Assembly: GCF_018599185.1 (NCBI RefSeq)
Contig: NZ_JAHFVL010000001.1
Span: forward strand, 2,108,001 to 2,172,000
Source: Rhodanobacter sp. LX-99
GTDB taxonomy: Bacteria > Pseudomonadota > Gammaproteobacteria > Xanthomonadales > Rhodanobacteraceae
Length of the DNA: 64,000 nucleotides
Direction of reading: 5' to 3'
Shown: piece by piece, positions 25,784 through 55,885 of the stretch
Position numbering within the stretch: the first letter of the stretch is position 1
Layout of the letters: every line of letters begins with the position of its first letter
Notes under the pieces: generated by a model
Databases searched by the model: none
What the model was told of the DNA's origin: nothing
The model's input: the letters and a program-made list of their open reading frames with translations, nothing else
Program-made: the position numbers and the translations under genes

Positions 25784-26746
25784 TCAGCCGGCGATCAGGC
25801 CTGCCGGCGCGGGTTTCACGTTCTCGGCCAGCACGCCCTGCTGCGTGCGGCGCAGTACCTGCGGCATGTGCTGCGCCACGAACTCGATGAAGCTGCGCAG
25901 CGCCGGGGTGTGGCCGTGGCGCGAGGGGTACACCGCGTGCACGTTGCCCGCCGGCAGCGACCACGCCGGCAGCAGCGGCACCAGCCGGCCCTCGGCAATC
26001 GGTTCACGGCAGACGAACTGCGGCAGCTGCGCCGCGCCGACGCCGCCGATCACCGCCTGGTACAGCACCTGCAAGTCGTCGCTGGTCAGGCTGGGGTGAT
26101 GTTCCACCTGCTGGGTGCGGCCGTCGGCGGCCTGCAGGTGCCAGAAGTGCCGCCCTTCCGCGCTGATCAGGCCCACGCTGGAAAGACGCTTGAGTTCCAG
26201 CGGCTGGGTCGGTTGGCCCTGGCGCCGCAACAGTTCGGGGCTGGCCACCAATACCTGCGGGTCCATGCCGTAGCTGCGCATGACCAGGCTGGAATCCTTG
26301 AGCGAATCGTGCACGCGGAACGCGATGTCGTAGCCGCCGGCGATCACGTCGACCTGGTGGTGGCAGATGTCGAGGTCGACCTGCACCTCGGGATGGCGCC
26401 GCAGGAAGTCGACCAGGATCGGCGCCAGCAGCAATTGTGCGAACAGCACCGGGCAGGCCACGTGGATGCGCCCGCGCGGTGCGGCCTGGGCTTCGTCGAT
26501 GACGCGCTGGGTCTGCTCGGCGGCGGCCAGCAACTGCCGGCATTGCTCGTAGTAGCGCTGGCCGATTTCGCTGACATGCGAGCGCCGCGTGGTGCGCTGG
26601 ATCAGCCGCACGCCGAGGCTGGCCTCCAGCCGCGCCACCCGGAAGCTCAGCTGCGACTTGGCCACGCCCAGCGCCTTGCTGGCGGCGGTGAACGAACCCA
26701 GCTCCACCACCTGCACGAAGTAGTAAATGTCGTTGAGGTCCTGCAC
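25784..26746 (-). CDS. LysR-family transcriptional regulator
   Basis: A 320-residue LysR-type regulator. The N-terminal winged helix is clear (FVQVVELGSFTAASKALGVAKSQLSFRVARLEASLGVRLIQRTTRRSHVSEIGQ region), followed by a linker helix and a periplasmic-binding-like effector domain (RIHVACPVLFAQLLLAPILVDFLRRHPEVQVDL; GYDIAFRVHDSLKDSSLVMRS) of the CrgA/AaeR-like class. It is divergent from the multiheme cytochrome operon with 256 bp between start codons, so control of that operon, of itself, or both is a reasonable inference. Its effector is unknown. Confidence 0.92.
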   Translation of the reverse strand: MQDLNDIYYFVQVVELGSFTAASKALGVAKSQLSFRVARLEASLGVRLIQRTTRRSHVSEIGQRYYEQCRQLLAAAEQTQRVIDEAQAAPRGRIHVACPVLFAQLLLAPILVDFLRRHPEVQVDLDICHHQVDVIAGGYDIAFRVHDSLKDSSLVMRSYGMDPQVLVASPELLRRQGQPTQPLELKRLSSVGLISAEGRHFWHLQAADGRTQQVEHHPSLTSDDLQVLYQAVIGGVGAAQLPQFVCREPIAEGRLVPLLPAWSLPAGNVHAVYPSRHGHTPALRSFIEFVAQHMPQVLRRTQQGVLAENVKPAPAGLIAG

Positions 26747-26800
26747 GGCATGTCCTTGCGGCCGGGATCAGGCGGCTTGGATCAGGCTAGCGCGATACGG

Positions 26801-26839
26801 CGCAATGTCTTGTTGCGACGCACAATCATCAGGGATTGT
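26801..26839. promoter_or_regulatory. Candidate LysR operator palindromes
   Basis: Two interrupted palindromes sit 55-93 bp upstream of the LysR start in the divergent region: cgcaa-N7-ttgcg (26801-26817) and acaatc-N6-gattgt (26822-26839). A direct repeat of ttaac at 26857-26861 and 26876-26880 (19-bp spacing) follows toward the cytochrome gene. LysR proteins commonly bind interrupted dyads of this size between divergent promoters. Binding is inferred only. Confidence 0.4.
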
Positions 26840-27002
26840 TCTGTGGTCATGGACATTTAACGCAATCAAAAAGGCTTAACAATCTTTCACTTCCGGGTGA
26901 ATACTCCGGCTTGGGACAAGGCCGGCCGCCAGGGAGATCGTACCGGGCAGGGGCGCGCCGGCCGATTGCGGTTTGTTCACGCTAGCCAAGGGGCGTCAAG
27001 CC

Positions 27003-28136
27003 ATGCGTGTGATTTCGTTGTTTCCTGCCGCCTTGCTGTGTGTGGCGCTGGGTGCCGGTGGCATCCTCTCGGGGTGCGGGGTAGCGCAGGCCCAGCAGGC
27101 GACCGCCCCCGCGCCGGCGGATGCCGCGCACAGCCCGTCCAGCGCGCTCAGCCAGAGCGACATCGCGAAGATGCTGCCGGCCACCGACATGGGCGCAGGC
27201 GCGGCGCGGGCGAACCATCCGCACCTGCCGCCGGCCGGCGACAGCCCGGCCACGCCGTTCGACGCCGCTTCGATTCCGGCCAACCCGCTGGCGCCGCAGG
27301 CCGACGCGATCGGCGCGAAGAGTTGCGTGGCCTGCCACGCGCAGGAAAACGTGCAGGCCTCGCACACGCTGCACGTGGCCTCGTTCCGTGCCGGCGCGGC
27401 GAACACCGGCCCGCAGGCGGCCTGCGAAAGTTGCCACGGCCCGGGTTCCGAGCATGCCAAGGACCCCACCGCGCCGGGCCTGATCATCGCCTTCACCCAC
27501 GATGCGAAAACCTCGCCGCAGGTCCAGGCCGGGGTGTGCCTCGCCTGCCATGCCGGCGGCGCGCGCCAGCACTGGATCGGCTCGATCCACCAGAACCGCG
27601 GCCTGTCCTGCACCGACTGCCACAACCCGATGGCGCGGCTGTCGCCCGAAGGCGTGCTGGCGAAATCCTCGATCAACGAAGTCTGCTCGACCTGCCACCA
27701 GGACATCCGCGCCAAGTTCAACCGCCGCTCGCACATGCCGCTGCCGGAAGGGCAGATGGCCTGCACCGACTGCCACAACCCGCACGGCTCGATCACCAAG
27801 CCGCTGCTGAAGACCGATACGGTCAACGAGACCTGCTACACCTGCCACGCCGAGAAGCGCGGGCCGTTCCTGTTCGAGCACGCGCCGGTGCGCGCGAACT
27901 GCCTCAACTGCCACGACGTGCACGGCTCCAACCAGCAGACCCTGCTGGTCGCGCCGATCCCGATGCTGTGCCAGCAGTGCCACACCATGACGCTGCATCC
28001 GAACGATCTGCAGAGCGCGGCCGGACTCGGCACCGGCCCGCATCCGGACGAGCGGCTGATCGGGCGCGGCTGCCTGACTTGCCACAGCAATATCCACGGC
28101 TCGAACAATCCTTCCGGACCGAAGTTCCACAAGTGA
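27003..28136 (+). CDS. DmsE/MtrA-family decaheme c-type cytochrome
   Basis: A 377-residue periplasmic cytochrome with ten CxxCH haem sites (CVACH, CESCH, CLACH, CTDCH, CSTCH, CTDCH, CYTCH, CLNCH, CQQCH, CLTCH), first at residue ~108. This count, spacing and the CNNPHG-like context (CTDCHNPHGS, CHDVHGSN) match the DmsE/MtrA/PioA family, whose members thread an outer-membrane barrel and pass electrons through it. The export signal contains a lipobox-like LSGC (Cys25), so it may be a lipoprotein; AQAQQ downstream is an alternative ordinary cleavage site. Between signal and first haem are ~80 residues rich in Ala/Pro. ATG 27003 follows AAGGGG (26988-26993). First gene of a three-gene operon; the barrel gene begins 12 bp later. 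Confidence 0.93.
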   Translation: MRVISLFPAALLCVALGAGGILSGCGVAQAQQATAPAPADAAHSPSSALSQSDIAKMLPATDMGAGAARANHPHLPPAGDSPATPFDAASIPANPLAPQADAIGAKSCVACHAQENVQASHTLHVASFRAGAANTGPQAACESCHGPGSEHAKDPTAPGLIIAFTHDAKTSPQVQAGVCLACHAGGARQHWIGSIHQNRGLSCTDCHNPMARLSPEGVLAKSSINEVCSTCHQDIRAKFNRRSHMPLPEGQMACTDCHNPHGSITKPLLKTDTVNETCYTCHAEKRGPFLFEHAPVRANCLNCHDVHGSNQQTLLVAPIPMLCQQCHTMTLHPNDLQSAAGLGTGPHPDERLIGRGCLTCHSNIHGSNNPSGPKFHK

Positions 28137-28148
28137 CGGAGGCGGACG

Positions 28149-30764
28149 ATGCTTGCGCTGAAAGGAAATCGCACGACGCCCACAGCCTTGGCGCTGGCTC
28201 TGCTGTGCGGGCTGTTCGGCGCGCAGGGCGTGCGGGCCGGTGATACCAGCGGCACCATGCGCGTGGGCGACATGCAGTTCGGCAATGCGCTCGACCTGCG
28301 CGGCTGGACACCGATGCTGCAGCCGGCCGATCCCGACGGCATGTCCTACCTGCACGCCGGCATGCTGCGCACGCCGACCGGCGCGCTGTATCCGTATCCG
28401 CCGATGGTCGATCCGGGCAAGCCGCTGGGCCAGGGCGACTGGACCTACGCCGGGCTGATCGAGTTCGGTTACCTGCACGTCGGCGGCGACCGCAACGCGG
28501 AATACTTCCGCCAGTACGCCGACTGGAAAAGTGGCGCCGTGCTGGGCCTGTTCGCGCTCAACTTCGACAACCGCAAGACCGGCAACTACGTTGAGGTCCG
28601 CGGCAGCCGCCTCAGCGGCGACGACCAGTACTACCGCCTGCGCGCCGGCCGCTACGGCAGCTACCGCATCGAGGGCTTCTACCGCGACATGCCGCATACC
28701 GTGTCGACCAGCGCCTACCCGATCTGGAACGGCGTCGGCAGCACCGACCTGACCCTGCCCGCGCCGCTGGTCGCCGGCGCCAGCACGCCGGCGCAGGTGG
28801 CCGCCGCATCGGCCGCCACGCCACGGCGCAGCATCGGGCTCACCCGCACCCGCGCCGGGCTTAGCTACGAAGGCGTGCTGTACCGCAACTGGATCGGCTC
28901 CGCCGCGATCACCAACGAGAAGCGCAGCGGCACCCGCCTGTGGGGCGGCTCGATGTTCTTCAACTTCCCGTTCCCGGACGACGGCGGCATCCTGGAAACG
29001 GTGCGGCCGATCGACTTCCGCACCACCGACATCAACCTCAGCCTGCGCAACGTCGGCAAGGTATGGCGCTTCCTCGCCACCTACAACGGTTCGTTCTTCC
29101 GCAACCACAAGGACCACCTGAACTTCGAGAGCCCGTTCGCCCTGTACAACGTGGTCGGCACGCCGCAGGTGGCCGACATCAAGGACGGCCAGTTCTCGCT
29201 GGAGCCGGACAACGACTACCACAACGTGCGGCTGGACCTGTCGCGCGAGCTGAAGTGGAACGGCCAGTTCACCGTGGCCGGCGCGTGGGGCACGATGCGC
29301 CAGAACGATGCGCTGCTGCCGCCGACCACCTGCACCGGCACCGGCGGCATCTTCATCGCGCCGCCGGCCGACTACACCTTCCAGTGCGCGAACTGGAACA
29401 CCACCGCGGCGCTGGCGCAGAAGAGCGCGAACGCGCGCATCGACACCGGCCTGTTCGATGCGCGGGTCACCTTCCGTCCCACCCCCGCCTTCGGCTGGCA
29501 CGCCGGTTTGCGCTGGTATCGCGAGGACAACAAGACCCGCTACCTCGCCTACAACCCGCTCACCGGCCAGTACGGCTACATCTCCGAGAACGGCTCGCAG
29601 GGCAGCGTGGTGCCTGGCGAGACCGGCATCTTCGACCCGGCCAACCCGCTGTACTGGTCGCGCAACGTCACCGTGCGCAACGTGCCGTTCGGCTATACCG
29701 ACGCGATCCTCGAACTGGGCGCGGACTGGCAGCTCGGCCGCAAGAGCTCGCTCGGCGTCACCTACACCTACGACCACAACCGGCCGAAGTACCGCGAGCG
29801 CAAGCGCGTCGACGAGCAGCGCATCAAGTTCGACTGGGTCAGCCGCGACGTCATAGGCGCCACCGTGCGGTTGAGCTGGGAGTACGCCAGGCGCGACGGC
29901 GACAAGTACAACTACGATCCGTACGTGCCGTTCTTCTCCGAGTCGCTGCCCGGTTTCGTCGATCCGGCCAACGGCCTGCCGGCGCATACCGTCGCCGACA
30001 TGCGCAAGTACGACCTGTCCGACCGCACCGAGAGCAAGGCGCGCGCGATCGTCACCTACCCGTGGGGCGAGTCGGCCACGCTGTCGGCCACGTTCTACGG
30101 CAACCGCGACCAGTACGACGCCCTGATCGGCCGGCAGGACACCCGCACCACCGGCGCCACCTTGCAGTGGGACTGGCAGCCGACCCCGGCCACCACGATG
30201 AACGCCTACCTCGGCGCGGAAACCTCGCGCATGGGCATCTCCAACGTCAACGATGCCGACGGGCCGGACAACGGCGCCGTCTTCGGCACGCCCGACCAGG
30301 TCAACCCCGATCTCGGCGGGCCGCTGTATCCGTACGCGAACCAGTGGTGGGAGTTCGACCGCGAAAGCAACCGCAATGCGGGCTTGAGCTTCAGCCACGA
30401 CTTCGGTCGCGCGCGTGCCGATCTCAGCTACAACTACACCGGCTCGTTCGGTCATGTCGGCTACAACTACGCCACCATCGGCGCGCTGGCCTATCGCGAT
30501 CCTGCCGGCGTGGCCGCGGCCGCCAACGGCTTTCCCGACAACAAGTACCGCACCAACACGCTCGACCTGGGCCTGAGTTTCCGCGTCAACCGCAACGTCG
30601 GCGTGCGCCTGTACGGCCGCTACGAAACCGGCGCATTCAGCGACTGGCATTACGCCGGGCTGGACAACACGCTCAGCTACGACCACCGCCTCTACACCGA
30701 CAAGGGCGGCCAGTTGCACTACAACGTGAGCCTGGTCGGCGTCATGTTGAACCTGAAGTTGTAG
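28149..30764 (+). CDS. MtrB/PioB-family outer-membrane beta-barrel
   Basis: An 871-residue porin-like protein: signal peptide (to about residue 30), then continuous alternating aromatic/polar strands typical of a large beta-barrel (LGLFALNFDNRKTGNYVEVRG, WRFLATYNGSFFRNHKDHLNF, YRTNTLDLGLSFRVN) ending in a terminal amphipathic strand LHYNVSLVGVMLNLKL. Family members are decaheme-associated barrels that sheath an MtrA-type cytochrome. Length is near PioB (about 810) and longer than Shewanella MtrB (about 700). The N-terminal CxxC of Shewanella MtrB is not present. Placement directly after the decaheme gene confirms the pairing. Confidence 0.9.
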   Translation: MLALKGNRTTPTALALALLCGLFGAQGVRAGDTSGTMRVGDMQFGNALDLRGWTPMLQPADPDGMSYLHAGMLRTPTGALYPYPPMVDPGKPLGQGDWTYAGLIEFGYLHVGGDRNAEYFRQYADWKSGAVLGLFALNFDNRKTGNYVEVRGSRLSGDDQYYRLRAGRYGSYRIEGFYRDMPHTVSTSAYPIWNGVGSTDLTLPAPLVAGASTPAQVAAASAATPRRSIGLTRTRAGLSYEGVLYRNWIGSAAITNEKRSGTRLWGGSMFFNFPFPDDGGILETVRPIDFRTTDINLSLRNVGKVWRFLATYNGSFFRNHKDHLNFESPFALYNVVGTPQVADIKDGQFSLEPDNDYHNVRLDLSRELKWNGQFTVAGAWGTMRQNDALLPPTTCTGTGGIFIAPPADYTFQCANWNTTAALAQKSANARIDTGLFDARVTFRPTPAFGWHAGLRWYREDNKTRYLAYNPLTGQYGYISENGSQGSVVPGETGIFDPANPLYWSRNVTVRNVPFGYTDAILELGADWQLGRKSSLGVTYTYDHNRPKYRERKRVDEQRIKFDWVSRDVIGATVRLSWEYARRDGDKYNYDPYVPFFSESLPGFVDPANGLPAHTVADMRKYDLSDRTESKARAIVTYPWGESATLSATFYGNRDQYDALIGRQDTRTTGATLQWDWQPTPATTMNAYLGAETSRMGISNVNDADGPDNGAVFGTPDQVNPDLGGPLYPYANQWWEFDRESNRNAGLSFSHDFGRARADLSYNYTGSFGHVGYNYATIGALAYRDPAGVAAAANGFPDNKYRTNTLDLGLSFRVNRNVGVRLYGRYETGAFSDWHYAGLDNTLSYDHRLYTDKGGQLHYNVSLVGVMLNLKL

Positions 30765-30778
30765 GAGCCGTGATCGTG

Positions 30779-31486
30779 ATGACGTATCGCACCAGTCTCC
30801 TGTTGGCCGGCCTGCTGCTGTCGACCGCCGTGCTCGACGTCGCCGCGCAGCAACCCGCCACGACGGCGTCCGCCGCGCCGGCCGGCGTGCTGGATCTGCG
30901 CCGCGTGCAGCCGGTCAGCGGCGACGCCCAGGCCGGTGCCGGCAAGGCCGCGGTATGCGCGGCCTGCCATGGCGCGCAGGGCGTGGCGATCGCGCCGAAC
31001 TTTCCGAACCTGGCCGGACAATCGGCCACCTATCTGTACGTGCAACTGAAGGAGTTCCACGACGGTCAGCGCAGCGACCCGGTGATGAGCGGCCAGGCCG
31101 CCGCGCTGAGCGACGCCGACATGCGCGATCTGGCCAGCTACTACGCCGCGCTGGCGCCGAAGCCGGCGGGCCAGGCCGATGCAAATTCGCGCGGCGCGCA
31201 GTTGTATCTGGCCGGCGATCCGGCGCAGGGCATTCCGCCCTGCCAAGGCTGTCACGGCCCGGCCGGGCTGGGTCCGCAGCCGCACCCCAGCAGCGCGCCG
31301 CAGCCGCCGTGGGCGACCTTCCCGCATCTGCGTGGCCAGTCCGGCTTGTACGTGACCAAGCAACTGGGCGATTTCAAGAGCGGCGCACGCGCCGGCAGCA
31401 GCAATGCGAAGGTGATGCATGGCATAGCGGCCACGCTCGGCGACGACGACGTGCAGGCGCTGTCGACCTGGCTGAGCACGTGGTGA
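30779..31486 (+). CDS. Periplasmic diheme cytochrome c (c4-like)
   Basis: A 235-residue exported protein with two class I haem domains: CAACH near residue 60 and CQGCH near 155, with distal Met candidates (DPVMSGQA; AKVMHGIA). The repeated motif LAGQSATYLYVQLKEFHDGQRSDPVMSGQAAAL is the c4/soxA-like module used by periplasmic electron carriers. It closes the operon (14 bp after the barrel) and would shuttle electrons between the decaheme cytochrome and inner-membrane or terminal oxidase partners. ATG 30779 is used; GTG 30770 and 30776 are in frame, but AGGAG at 30763-30767 is best spaced for 30776-30779. Confidence 0.88.
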   Translation: MTYRTSLLLAGLLLSTAVLDVAAQQPATTASAAPAGVLDLRRVQPVSGDAQAGAGKAAVCAACHGAQGVAIAPNFPNLAGQSATYLYVQLKEFHDGQRSDPVMSGQAAALSDADMRDLASYYAALAPKPAGQADANSRGAQLYLAGDPAQGIPPCQGCHGPAGLGPQPHPSSAPQPPWATFPHLRGQSGLYVTKQLGDFKSGARAGSSNAKVMHGIAATLGDDDVQALSTWLSTW

Positions 31487-54048: not shown

Positions 54049-54936
54049 TTACTTGCCGGCGCTTTCCTTGGCGACCAGCCACTGGGTCAACTCGATCGAC
54101 TGCGCGTAGCCGCCGGCGGAGCTTGCCGTGAAACGGTACTTGCCGTTGACGATCATGGTCGGCGTGCTGTCTACCCCGTAGGCCTTCATCAGGTCGTCGG
54201 CACGCTTCATCTTGGTGTTGACGGTGAACGAGTTGGCGACGCCGACGAATTCCTTCGGGTCGACGCCGTACTTGGCGTAGAACTTCGCCGCGTCCTCGAT
54301 GGTCGGCCATGCCGAATGCGGCTTCAGTCCGCTGGCTTTCAGGTTGTAGGTGGACAGCTCGCCGCTCTTCCACACCGCGTCGAACATCGCGTCATGGGTC
54401 TTGCCGACCAGGTTCAGCGCCTGCGCCGCGTAGAACGCGCGCTGGTACATCGGCCAGTTCTCGTCCGGACGGAACGCGGCGGCCAGGTAATTCATCACCG
54501 CGTTCGGCGGCAGGCTCCTGGCGATCTGGTCGGCGGTGGAATGGAAGCCGTTGCAGGCCGGGCAACCGTAGGAGAACACCTCGGTCACCTCGATCTTGCC
54601 GGGATGGCTGGTCGGCTGCGCCGGATCGATCAGGAAGTAGTTCTTGCCTTCGACCCACTTGCCGTTGTCGACGAACGGCACCGCGGCCGCGGCCGGGGCG
54701 GGCGCGGCGGAGGTGGTCGCAGCCGGTGCGGCGGCGACCGTGCCGGTGGCGGCGGGTGCCGCGCTGCCGGCCGTTGCCGGTGCGGTGCTGCTGGCCGTGG
54801 TGCTGGCCGGCGCGGCTTCGGCGCTGCTGGTGACGGCGGGCGCGGCCTGCCGGGCAGCACTGCCGGTGTCGCTGTCATGGCTGCAGGCGGCAAGCGCGAG
54901 CAGGGCGGCACACAGGAACGGCAGACGCTTCAACAT
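54049..54936 (-). CDS. DsbA-like lipoprotein with long Ala/Thr/Pro linker (CPAC)
   Basis: A 295-residue protein: lipobox ALAAC (Cys18), an unstructured linker of about 75 residues rich in Ala, Ser, Thr and Pro, then a DsbA domain with VFSYGCPACNGFH (CPAC), FRPDENWPMYQRAFYAAQALN and cis-Pro STPTMIVNGKYRF. Tethering by lipid and linker would let it reach substrates at the inner or outer membrane. ATG 54936 places the lipobox correctly; an upstream ATG adds eight residues. Part of the c4-dsbA-dsbA block that is conserved in xanthomonads. Confidence 0.9.
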   Translation of the reverse strand: MLKRLPFLCAALLALAACSHDSDTGSAARQAAPAVTSSAEAAPASTTASSTAPATAGSAAPAATGTVAAAPAATTSAAPAPAAAAVPFVDNGKWVEGKNYFLIDPAQPTSHPGKIEVTEVFSYGCPACNGFHSTADQIARSLPPNAVMNYLAAAFRPDENWPMYQRAFYAAQALNLVGKTHDAMFDAVWKSGELSTYNLKASGLKPHSAWPTIEDAAKFYAKYGVDPKEFVGVANSFTVNTKMKRADDLMKAYGVDSTPTMIVNGKYRFTASSAGGYAQSIELTQWLVAKESAGK

Positions 54937-54999
54937 GGCAGACCTCGAGAGGCGGAACACAAAACGACAGCGCCGACACTTCGGTCGGCGCGGATTCGA

Positions 55000-55770
55000 T
55001 CAGGGCGTGGCGGCCGGCTGGCTGTCGGCGCTGTGCAGGCCCTCGATGTAGCTGGCCAGGGCAGCGATGTCGTCGGCGCTCAGCTGCTTGGCGATCGCCG
55101 GCATGATCTGCGCGTGGGCATCGTCGCCCCAGGTGGTGCCGTCGTGCCAGGCCTTCAGCGTGGCTTCGATGTACTGCGCGTGCTGGCTGGTCAGCTGCGG
55201 ATACATCGCGCCCGGATTGCCGCGGCCGTCGATGCTGTGGCACGCCATGCAGGCGGGGATGCCGCGCGTGGCGTCGCCCTGGCGGAACAGCGTCTGGCCG
55301 TGCTCCACCAGCGCCTGGTCGGCTACGCCGGGCAGTGCGGTCTTGCTGGCGAAGTAGGCGCCGACGTCGTGCATGTCCTGGGTGGACAGCGGCGCGGCCA
55401 TGCCCATCATGATCGGGTTCTGCCGTTTGCCGGATTTGAAGTCGGTCAGCTGGCGCACGATGTACTGCTCGCTCTGGCCGGCCAGCTTCGGGTACTGCGC
55501 ATCGGCGGAATTGCCGTCCATGCCGTGGCAGGCGCCGCAGACCGCGGCCTTGGCCTGGCCCGCGGTGGCATCACCGGGCTTCACCGCGGCTGCGGCAACA
55601 GCCGTGGCAGTGGCCGCGCTGGCGGGCGTTGCCGCGGTGCTGGCGGCGGCTGGCGTGGCAGTCTCCGGCTTGGCGTCTTGTGCCGTCACGGCGCCGGCGG
55701 ACAGCGCCAGCACAAGGGCCAGGGCAGACCCGAGAACCGTGGGTCGAAAACCAGCGGACCGAAAACTCAT
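55000..55770 (-). CDS. Cytochrome c4 (diheme)
   Basis: A 256-residue exported cytochrome. Signal peptide to about residue 29 (LALVLALSAGAVTAQ), an Ala-rich spacer, then two class I haem domains: CGACHGMDGNSADAQYPKLAGQ and CMACHSIDGRGNPGAMYPQLTSQ, with Met ligands in NPIMMGMAAPL and AQIMPAIAKQL. Cytochrome c4 carries electrons from the bc1 complex to terminal oxidases at the periplasmic face. ATG 55770 places the signal sequence properly. Divergent from engB, as in other gammaproteobacteria. Confidence 0.93.
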   Translation of the reverse strand: MSFRSAGFRPTVLGSALALVLALSAGAVTAQDAKPETATPAAASTAATPASAATATAVAAAAVKPGDATAGQAKAAVCGACHGMDGNSADAQYPKLAGQSEQYIVRQLTDFKSGKRQNPIMMGMAAPLSTQDMHDVGAYFASKTALPGVADQALVEHGQTLFRQGDATRGIPACMACHSIDGRGNPGAMYPQLTSQHAQYIEATLKAWHDGTTWGDDAHAQIMPAIAKQLSADDIAALASYIEGLHSADSQPAATP

Positions 55771-55885
55771 ACACTTGACTCCCGAGAGACTTGCGAACAC
55801 TGCCAGGGATTGTGGCCATGCGGCCTGCAACAGGCAGAAACCTCAGAATTATCCCGTGCCACCCTACCTTGGTCAAACCATCCCC

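Follow-up and report, generated by a model that had tools for sequence, protein, structure and literature searches.

In Rhodanobacter sp. LX-99, we found a three-gene unit, mtrA-mtrB-c4, that encodes a decaheme cytochrome, an outer-membrane barrel and a diheme cytochrome, and that we read, with a probability of roughly 0.6, as a conduit of the Pio/Mto kind, working at high potential, by which a heterotrophic host takes up electrons across its outer membrane. The unit spans 27003-31486 and a LysR gene diverges from mtrA; all coordinates are positions in the window, that is the whole 64,000-nt stretch under study (contig NZ_JAHFVL010000001.1, assembly GCF_018599185.1). The original prediction, made from the sequence alone, had leaned to an oxidation mode. 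Electron uptake is now supported by Met at two distal haem-ligand positions of MtrA (Met210 and Met245), by the adjacent c4 gene, by genes for a high-potential iron-sulfur protein (HiPIP) or a cupredoxin in relatives, and by the lack of an MtrC or CymA/NapC match in the genome. The two Met positions, which the earlier reader had missed, are the main clue.

The mtrA gene (27003-28136, plus strand; start ATG 27003, alternative TTG 26973) encodes a decaheme c-type cytochrome of the MtrA/DmsE family. The first Cys of its ten CxxCH motifs are residues 108, 141, 179, 203, 228, 254, 278, 300, 323 and 357. The protein scored 256.6 bits against TIGR03508 (DmsE-family decaheme), above the cut-off of 192.2, and matched the MtrA chain of PDB 6r2q (E 1.2e-63); its nearest relative comes from Rhodanobacter sp. 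Soil772 (98% over 280 columns). After a gap of 12 bp, mtrB (28149-30764, plus strand) encodes an 871-aa barrel of the MtrB/PioB family, with 323.2 bits against PF11854 (MtrB_PioB; cut-off 23, E 4.7e-96), 231.4 bits against TIGR03509, just below its cut-off of 240.05, and a match by sequence to PDB 6r2q. Thus, both the ten CxxCH motifs in one protein and the long beta-barrel gene 12 bp downstream had been read correctly from the letters. The structure of the barrel was predicted with AlphaFold2 on 62 aligned sequences (the window protein and 61 of the 120 matches listed). With a predicted local distance difference test (pLDDT) score of 75.8 and a predicted template modelling (pTM) score of 0.74, the model has 26 long strands, each of 10 residues or more, which is the strand number of MtrB. 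Short turns mostly alternate with long loops, a short helix lies between strands 1 and 2, strands 2 to 4 are shorter, and confidence is low at residues 1-90 and in some outer loops. MtrB has been described in much the same terms as regards strands, turns, loops and helix (PMC7198977; papers are cited here and below for the accessible parts of their text). Together, the family membership of MtrA and MtrB and the predicted 26-strand barrel support the conduit across the outer membrane that had first been proposed, in which the barrel would hold the decaheme MtrA. The three-gene arrangement is not due to chance, since the same order recurs in relatives.

We then compared 47 related loci, mostly from Rhodanobacteraceae (flanks of at most 8 kb, less in ten loci), with 42 loci sampled across the class and the phylum, which hold 43 decahemes (some loci share a genome and a few are short). 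One of these 42, L150, from the same order, joins the window lineage by both cassette and tree, and the other 41 lie outside it. Distal-ligand positions were assigned by His conservation and not from coordinates: in the first 14 decahemes compared from outside the lineage, conservation was at least 93% in ten non-CxxCH His columns and 86% in one more. Two of these ten probable ligand columns are Met in the window lineage, namely residues 210 (codon 27630-27632, plus strand) and 245 (codon 27735-27737, plus strand). Met210 was present in 50/50 lineage rows, while the 43 other decahemes had 42 His and a single Met, that of L150; Met245 was likewise present in 50/50 lineage rows, against 41 His and 2 Met. 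L041 was left out of these counts by the length filter, and L106 because it lies on the same contig as L037. The same pattern was seen in database lists, which represent close relatives of the two queries used. Among the best 120 of 6376 relatives of the window MtrA, residue 210 was Met in 119 and Arg in 1, and residue 245 was Met in all 120, whereas the best 120 of 7979 relatives of the MtrA of L101, an outside locus, had His at both positions in 120/120. In our alignments, no conserved His besides the haem's own was found near Met210. In the smaller alignments, the first distal His seemed displaced between the two sets (column 130 versus 121/124); with more sequences, it fell in column 124 in both.

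In a tree of MtrA sequences, from which L041 was also absent, a single branch (support 100/100; stem length 1.18 changes per column) divides the 51 Met210 rows from all others; according to a warning from the program, long branches come together there, that of L104 among them. By sequence, the window lineage is one clade. We consider it probable from the alignments that Met210 and Met245 are distal haem ligands, that is, that two haems have His/Met ligation, and such ligation would raise the haem potential in the window MtrA. Li et al. 2020 reportedly found His/Met-ligated haems in PioA. Reported titration ranges are -400 to -100 mV for MtrA, -400 to +100 mV for MtoA and -400 to +250 mV for PioA (PMC12203936).

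MtrA also carries about 70 residues between its signal peptide and the first haem motif. In this N-terminal extension, a motif close to LPATD (loose pattern) was found in 43/50 lineage rows and in 0/14 outside sequences. The lipobox LSGC in the signal peptide (within 27003-27100) raised the possibility of a lipoprotein, which we dropped because the aligned Cys is not common to the relatives compared; among 21 MtrA sequences, the lipobox pattern had one other match (VVAC, in L011), further upstream.

The third gene starts 14 bp after mtrB (30779-31486, plus strand; ATG 30779, alternative GTG 30770). Its product matches PF00034 and the cytochrome c4 of PDB 6q2u (E 5.4e-42), and Met occupies both sixth-ligand positions in 40/40 aligned sequences (here Met103 and Met213, the probable ligands). 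By sequence, the operon diheme is a cytochrome c4, in which each of the two c domains has a probable Met ligand. The original prediction was right in placing a two-haem carrier gene here, but it had not recognised a cytochrome c4. A second c4-like diheme gene (55000-55830, 42% identity over the matched part) lies beside a DSBA-domain gene, both within 54049-55830 on the minus strand; this second c4 is probably the housekeeping copy and the operon c4 an additional one.

Of the Rhodanobacteraceae genomes sampled, 52/147 encode the window-type MtrB, as do 48/135 of those of good quality; the 52 represent 15 of 26 genera. Within the genus of the window, 6/11 genomes have it. A c4 gene follows mtrB in 45 of the 47 related loci; the two exceptions, L025 and L051, are truncated by contig ends, and L045 is incomplete. 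Neighbouring genes were clustered in 46 loci, and a targeted search for carriers extended up to 4.5 kb from the operon in each of the 47. A HiPIP gene was found in 7/47 loci and a cupredoxin gene in 9/47, one or both being present in 12/47. All 12 loci belong to a Dokdonella/Tahibacter branch of 19 rows (17 loci). Six HiPIP genes start at most 157 bp after c4 and the seventh lies 2.8 kb away, while, of the nine cupredoxin genes, four follow c4 and five stand between it and mtrB. Pfam assignment of one example each gave PF01355 (E 2.2e-23, L039) and PF00127 (E 3.9e-6, L048). With the same queries, which divergent carriers may escape, no HiPIP was found in the 41 outside loci and L150, and no cupredoxin in the 41 outside loci, with one weak match in L150 (E 4e-4). 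HiPIP is the carrier type of PioC, known from an Fe(II)-oxidation chain (PMC10304953).

An open reading frame (ORF) other than mtrA with at least nine CxxCH motifs and more than 550 aa was found in 22/41 outside loci versus 0/47 lineage loci, and apart from the decahemes, the fetched flanks of the 47 loci contained no closed ORF of at least 80 aa with four or more CxxCH motifs. In four outside loci (L102, L103, L104 and L137), an ORF of some 200 aa with four CxxCH motifs lies downstream of MtrAB on the same strand. Another MtrAB variant, in which a downstream gene encodes a protein of some 660-690 aa with nine CxxCH motifs, was seen in a clade of the same phylum (L139-L142 and L144-L148).

The genome (3.83 Mb in 6 contigs) has a single PF11854 match, and its three Paired_CXXCH matches all fall within the window decaheme. 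At an E value of 0.001, we found no match in it to the MtrC/OmcA model TIGR03507, as anticipated by the claim that no MtrC-like surface cytochrome is present, nor to PF03264 (CymA/NapC) or the large subunit of ribulose-1,5-bisphosphate carboxylase/oxygenase (RuBisCO). Three oxidase genes match PF00115, among them an aa3-type subunit I (best model CtaD, 629.9 bits over a 442-aa stretch, below the cut-off of 670.75) and a cbb3-type subunit I above the cut-off of the CcoN model. Two candidates were rejected: autotrophy, given the lack of RuBisCO in the genome and of a RuBisCO-mtrB association in the family, and export fed by CymA/NapC, given the lack of a PF03264 match in the genome and of a significant tie to mtrB in the family.

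Taken together, we favour an inward flow of electrons to the oxidases. The exposed end of MtrA would receive electrons from an external donor, for which Fe(II), reduced minerals and reduced humic or phenolic compounds are the likeliest candidates. Within MtrA, the two probable His/Met haems may raise the potential of part of the chain, as reported for PioA. In the periplasm, the operon c4 would accept the electrons from MtrA, and the aa3 or cbb3 oxidase, or another periplasmic reductase, would receive them in turn. Since the genome lacks RuBisCO, the conduit would be a supplementary energy source during heterotrophic life rather than a support for autotrophy.

The closest known system is PioABC of Rhodopseudomonas palustris TIE-1, with which the window system shares an MtrAB-type pair without MtrC, probable His/Met haems (PioA being taken by description and the window Met positions by alignment), a dedicated high-potential periplasmic carrier and, as we infer for the window system, inward flow. 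Both decahemes have an N-terminal extension, of about 70 aa here and about 200 aa in PioA. The third gene differs, being a HiPIP there and a c4 here, with HiPIP genes nearby in 7/47 related loci. Moreover, unlike the PioABC host, the hosts of the cassette are not known to be phototrophs. The extension of PioA has been described on the decaheme itself (PMC6831781). In Sideroxydans lithotrophicus ES-1, MtoAB are MtrAB homologues without MtrC (PMC8805035) and a periplasmic cytochrome may feed an oxidase (PMC13390432); the system of MtoAB with MtoD/ImoA is alike in these respects, but the window operon has neither a tetraheme inner-membrane partner nor the monoheme MtoD. Shewanella MtrCAB is similar in the sequences of MtrA and MtrB (PDB 6r2q) and in the 26-strand barrel, predicted here. 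It differs in that the MtrC and CymA models have no match in the LX-99 genome and in that all 20 of its haems are bis-His (PMC7198977), whereas two ligand positions are Met here. Finally, the Cyc2-rusticyanin-Cyc1 pathway of Acidithiobacillus iron oxidation, in which Cyc1 is a c4 (PMC10654088), shares the c4 and, in 9/47 relatives, a cupredoxin gene, but its outer-membrane part is a fused Cyc2 and not MtrAB.

Several observations weigh against electron uptake at high potential. First, L104, which lies outside the lineage, also has Met245, and the neighbouring His244 could serve as the ligand instead of Met245 because it is conserved (120/120 relatives of the window MtrA and 108/120 of those of L101, best 120 each). 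Second, c4-like genes were found near MtrAB in 8/41 outside loci, in L098 only as a fragment at the edge of a contig, and c4-like genes and a large decaheme occur together in five (L092, L098, L099, L151 and L156). L101, a contig of a metagenome-assembled genome with a protein named from a Chromatiales bacterium, has the order mtrA-mtrB-c4 with His210. A c4 beside MtrAB has arisen more than once, and such genes outside the lineage mean that c4 alone does not fix the direction of electrons. Third, neither HiPIP nor cupredoxin genes lie beside the window operon. Fourth, within Rhodanobacteraceae, RuBisCO was present in 2/52 genomes with mtrB and 10/95 without (Fisher p 0.21), and a strong NapC/NirT-type tetraheme in 10/52 with mtrB versus 10/95 without (p 0.21). 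Lastly, MtrAB conduits can run both ways (PMC8805035), and we infer the donor, the potentials and the direction.

An alternative that such reversibility would suit is a high-potential flow outwards, from bc1 through c4 and MtrA to Mn(IV), oxidised phenolics or peroxide, as an overflow at low O2. The five outside loci just named place c4-like genes near MtrCAB clusters, and Met ligands would bring MtrA nearer to c4 whichever the direction. We regard this flow as unlikely, however, given that no MtrC/OmcA or CymA/NapC model matched in the genome and that the HiPIP and cupredoxin of relatives are carriers of Fe(II)-oxidation chains. Less likely still is a redox safety valve or metal defence, in which external metals would be oxidised or reduced and kept from the periplasm with no energy gain. 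The patchy presence (6/11 genomes of the genus) and the lack of a RuBisCO association would suit it, as would the tie of another R. palustris HiPIP to the divalent-metal response (PMC10304953), but the operon is conserved and has a c4 of its own, which suggests respiratory coupling, and no metal-resistance gene immediately adjoins it. Least probable of all is a DmsEF-like delivery to an exported enzyme dedicated to the conduit, whose gene would lie at another place in the genome: although the decaheme exceeds the TIGR03508 cut-off and the lack of a surface cytochrome would suit a soluble partner, that model also takes in the MtrA-type proteins found here, and the exported oxidoreductase that the original prediction had offered as an option found no support, with none recurring among the neighbour clusters identified in the 46 loci (a DMSO (dimethyl sulfoxide)-reductase-like enzyme was not searched genome-wide).

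The neighbour clusters identified (25 listed, some unassigned) comprise redox carriers, ccm genes, regulators, an S8 peptidase and FolE2. In the window, the operon is adjoined by the LysR gene and flanked by genes for an HI0933-like flavoprotein and a glutamine cyclotransferase (Pfam scan), and no DmsAB molybdoenzyme is present in the cluster. The flanking genes are common to eight Rhodanobacter loci (L005-L010, L012 and L018) and mostly not to others; therefore, the position of the cassette differs between genera. The whole mtrA-mtrB-c4 unit is in tandem duplicate in L037 (6.8-15.6 kb) and L044 (6.7-16.1 kb), and ccmE and/or ccmF, ccmG adjoin the cassette in L035, L038, L040, L041, L042 and L047, and in L150.

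The LysR-family gene (25784-26746, minus strand; PF03466 and PF00126) does diverge from the same intergenic region as mtrA, as originally described, and judging from its position it probably controls the operon. Alignment of 12 intergenic regions revealed conserved blocks in 26747-27002, among them 26810-26826, which forms an imperfect dyad, and 26835-26859; a LysR site may lie in this region. Among the 44 related loci with more than 1 kb of upstream sequence, 23 have a divergent LysR gene ahead of mtrA. In 10 related loci, genes for an extracytoplasmic function (ECF) sigma factor and its anti-sigma factor replace LysR, nine of which also have an S8 peptidase (subtilase) gene upstream of mtrA (L020, L024, L030, L033, L034, L039, L046, L048 and L049). 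An S8 protease beside an N-terminally extended decaheme recalls the processing of PioA. In L020 (5663-6715) and L024 (5630-6691), the gene immediately preceding mtrA encodes a FolE2-type GTP cyclohydrolase.

Each part of this system is known; what we did not find described is the combination of a lineage-wide pair of Met positions with c4, and with HiPIP or cupredoxin in relatives, in the absence of MtrC and, for the LX-99 genome, of any CymA/NapC match. Our literature search, whose coverage excluded most subscription papers, returned no title on MtrAB in Rhodanobacteraceae, and the accessible text of PMC8805035 contains no occurrence of Rhodanobacter, Dyella or Xanthomonad-. Rhodanobacter has been mentioned for Cyc2 and a porin-multicopper oxidase cluster (PMC5566968), and Cyc2 homologues have been reported in Rhodanobacteraceae (PMC10654088). 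We tentatively propose, at somewhat less than even odds, a separate class of high-potential MtrAB, with two His-to-Met ligands and interchangeable c4, HiPIP and cupredoxin carriers, by which ordinary heterotrophs among the soil Rhodanobacteraceae would pass electrons from Fe(II) or reduced humic compounds straight to their oxidases, with no involvement of quinones or carbon fixation. Which factor decides the direction in MtrAB conduits has been named an open question (PMC8805035), and Met at two otherwise-His ligand positions offers a sequence marker for it, testable by two residue changes. If these heterotrophs, which are common in soil, do take up electrons in this way, the range of participants in iron and humic redox cycling would be wider.

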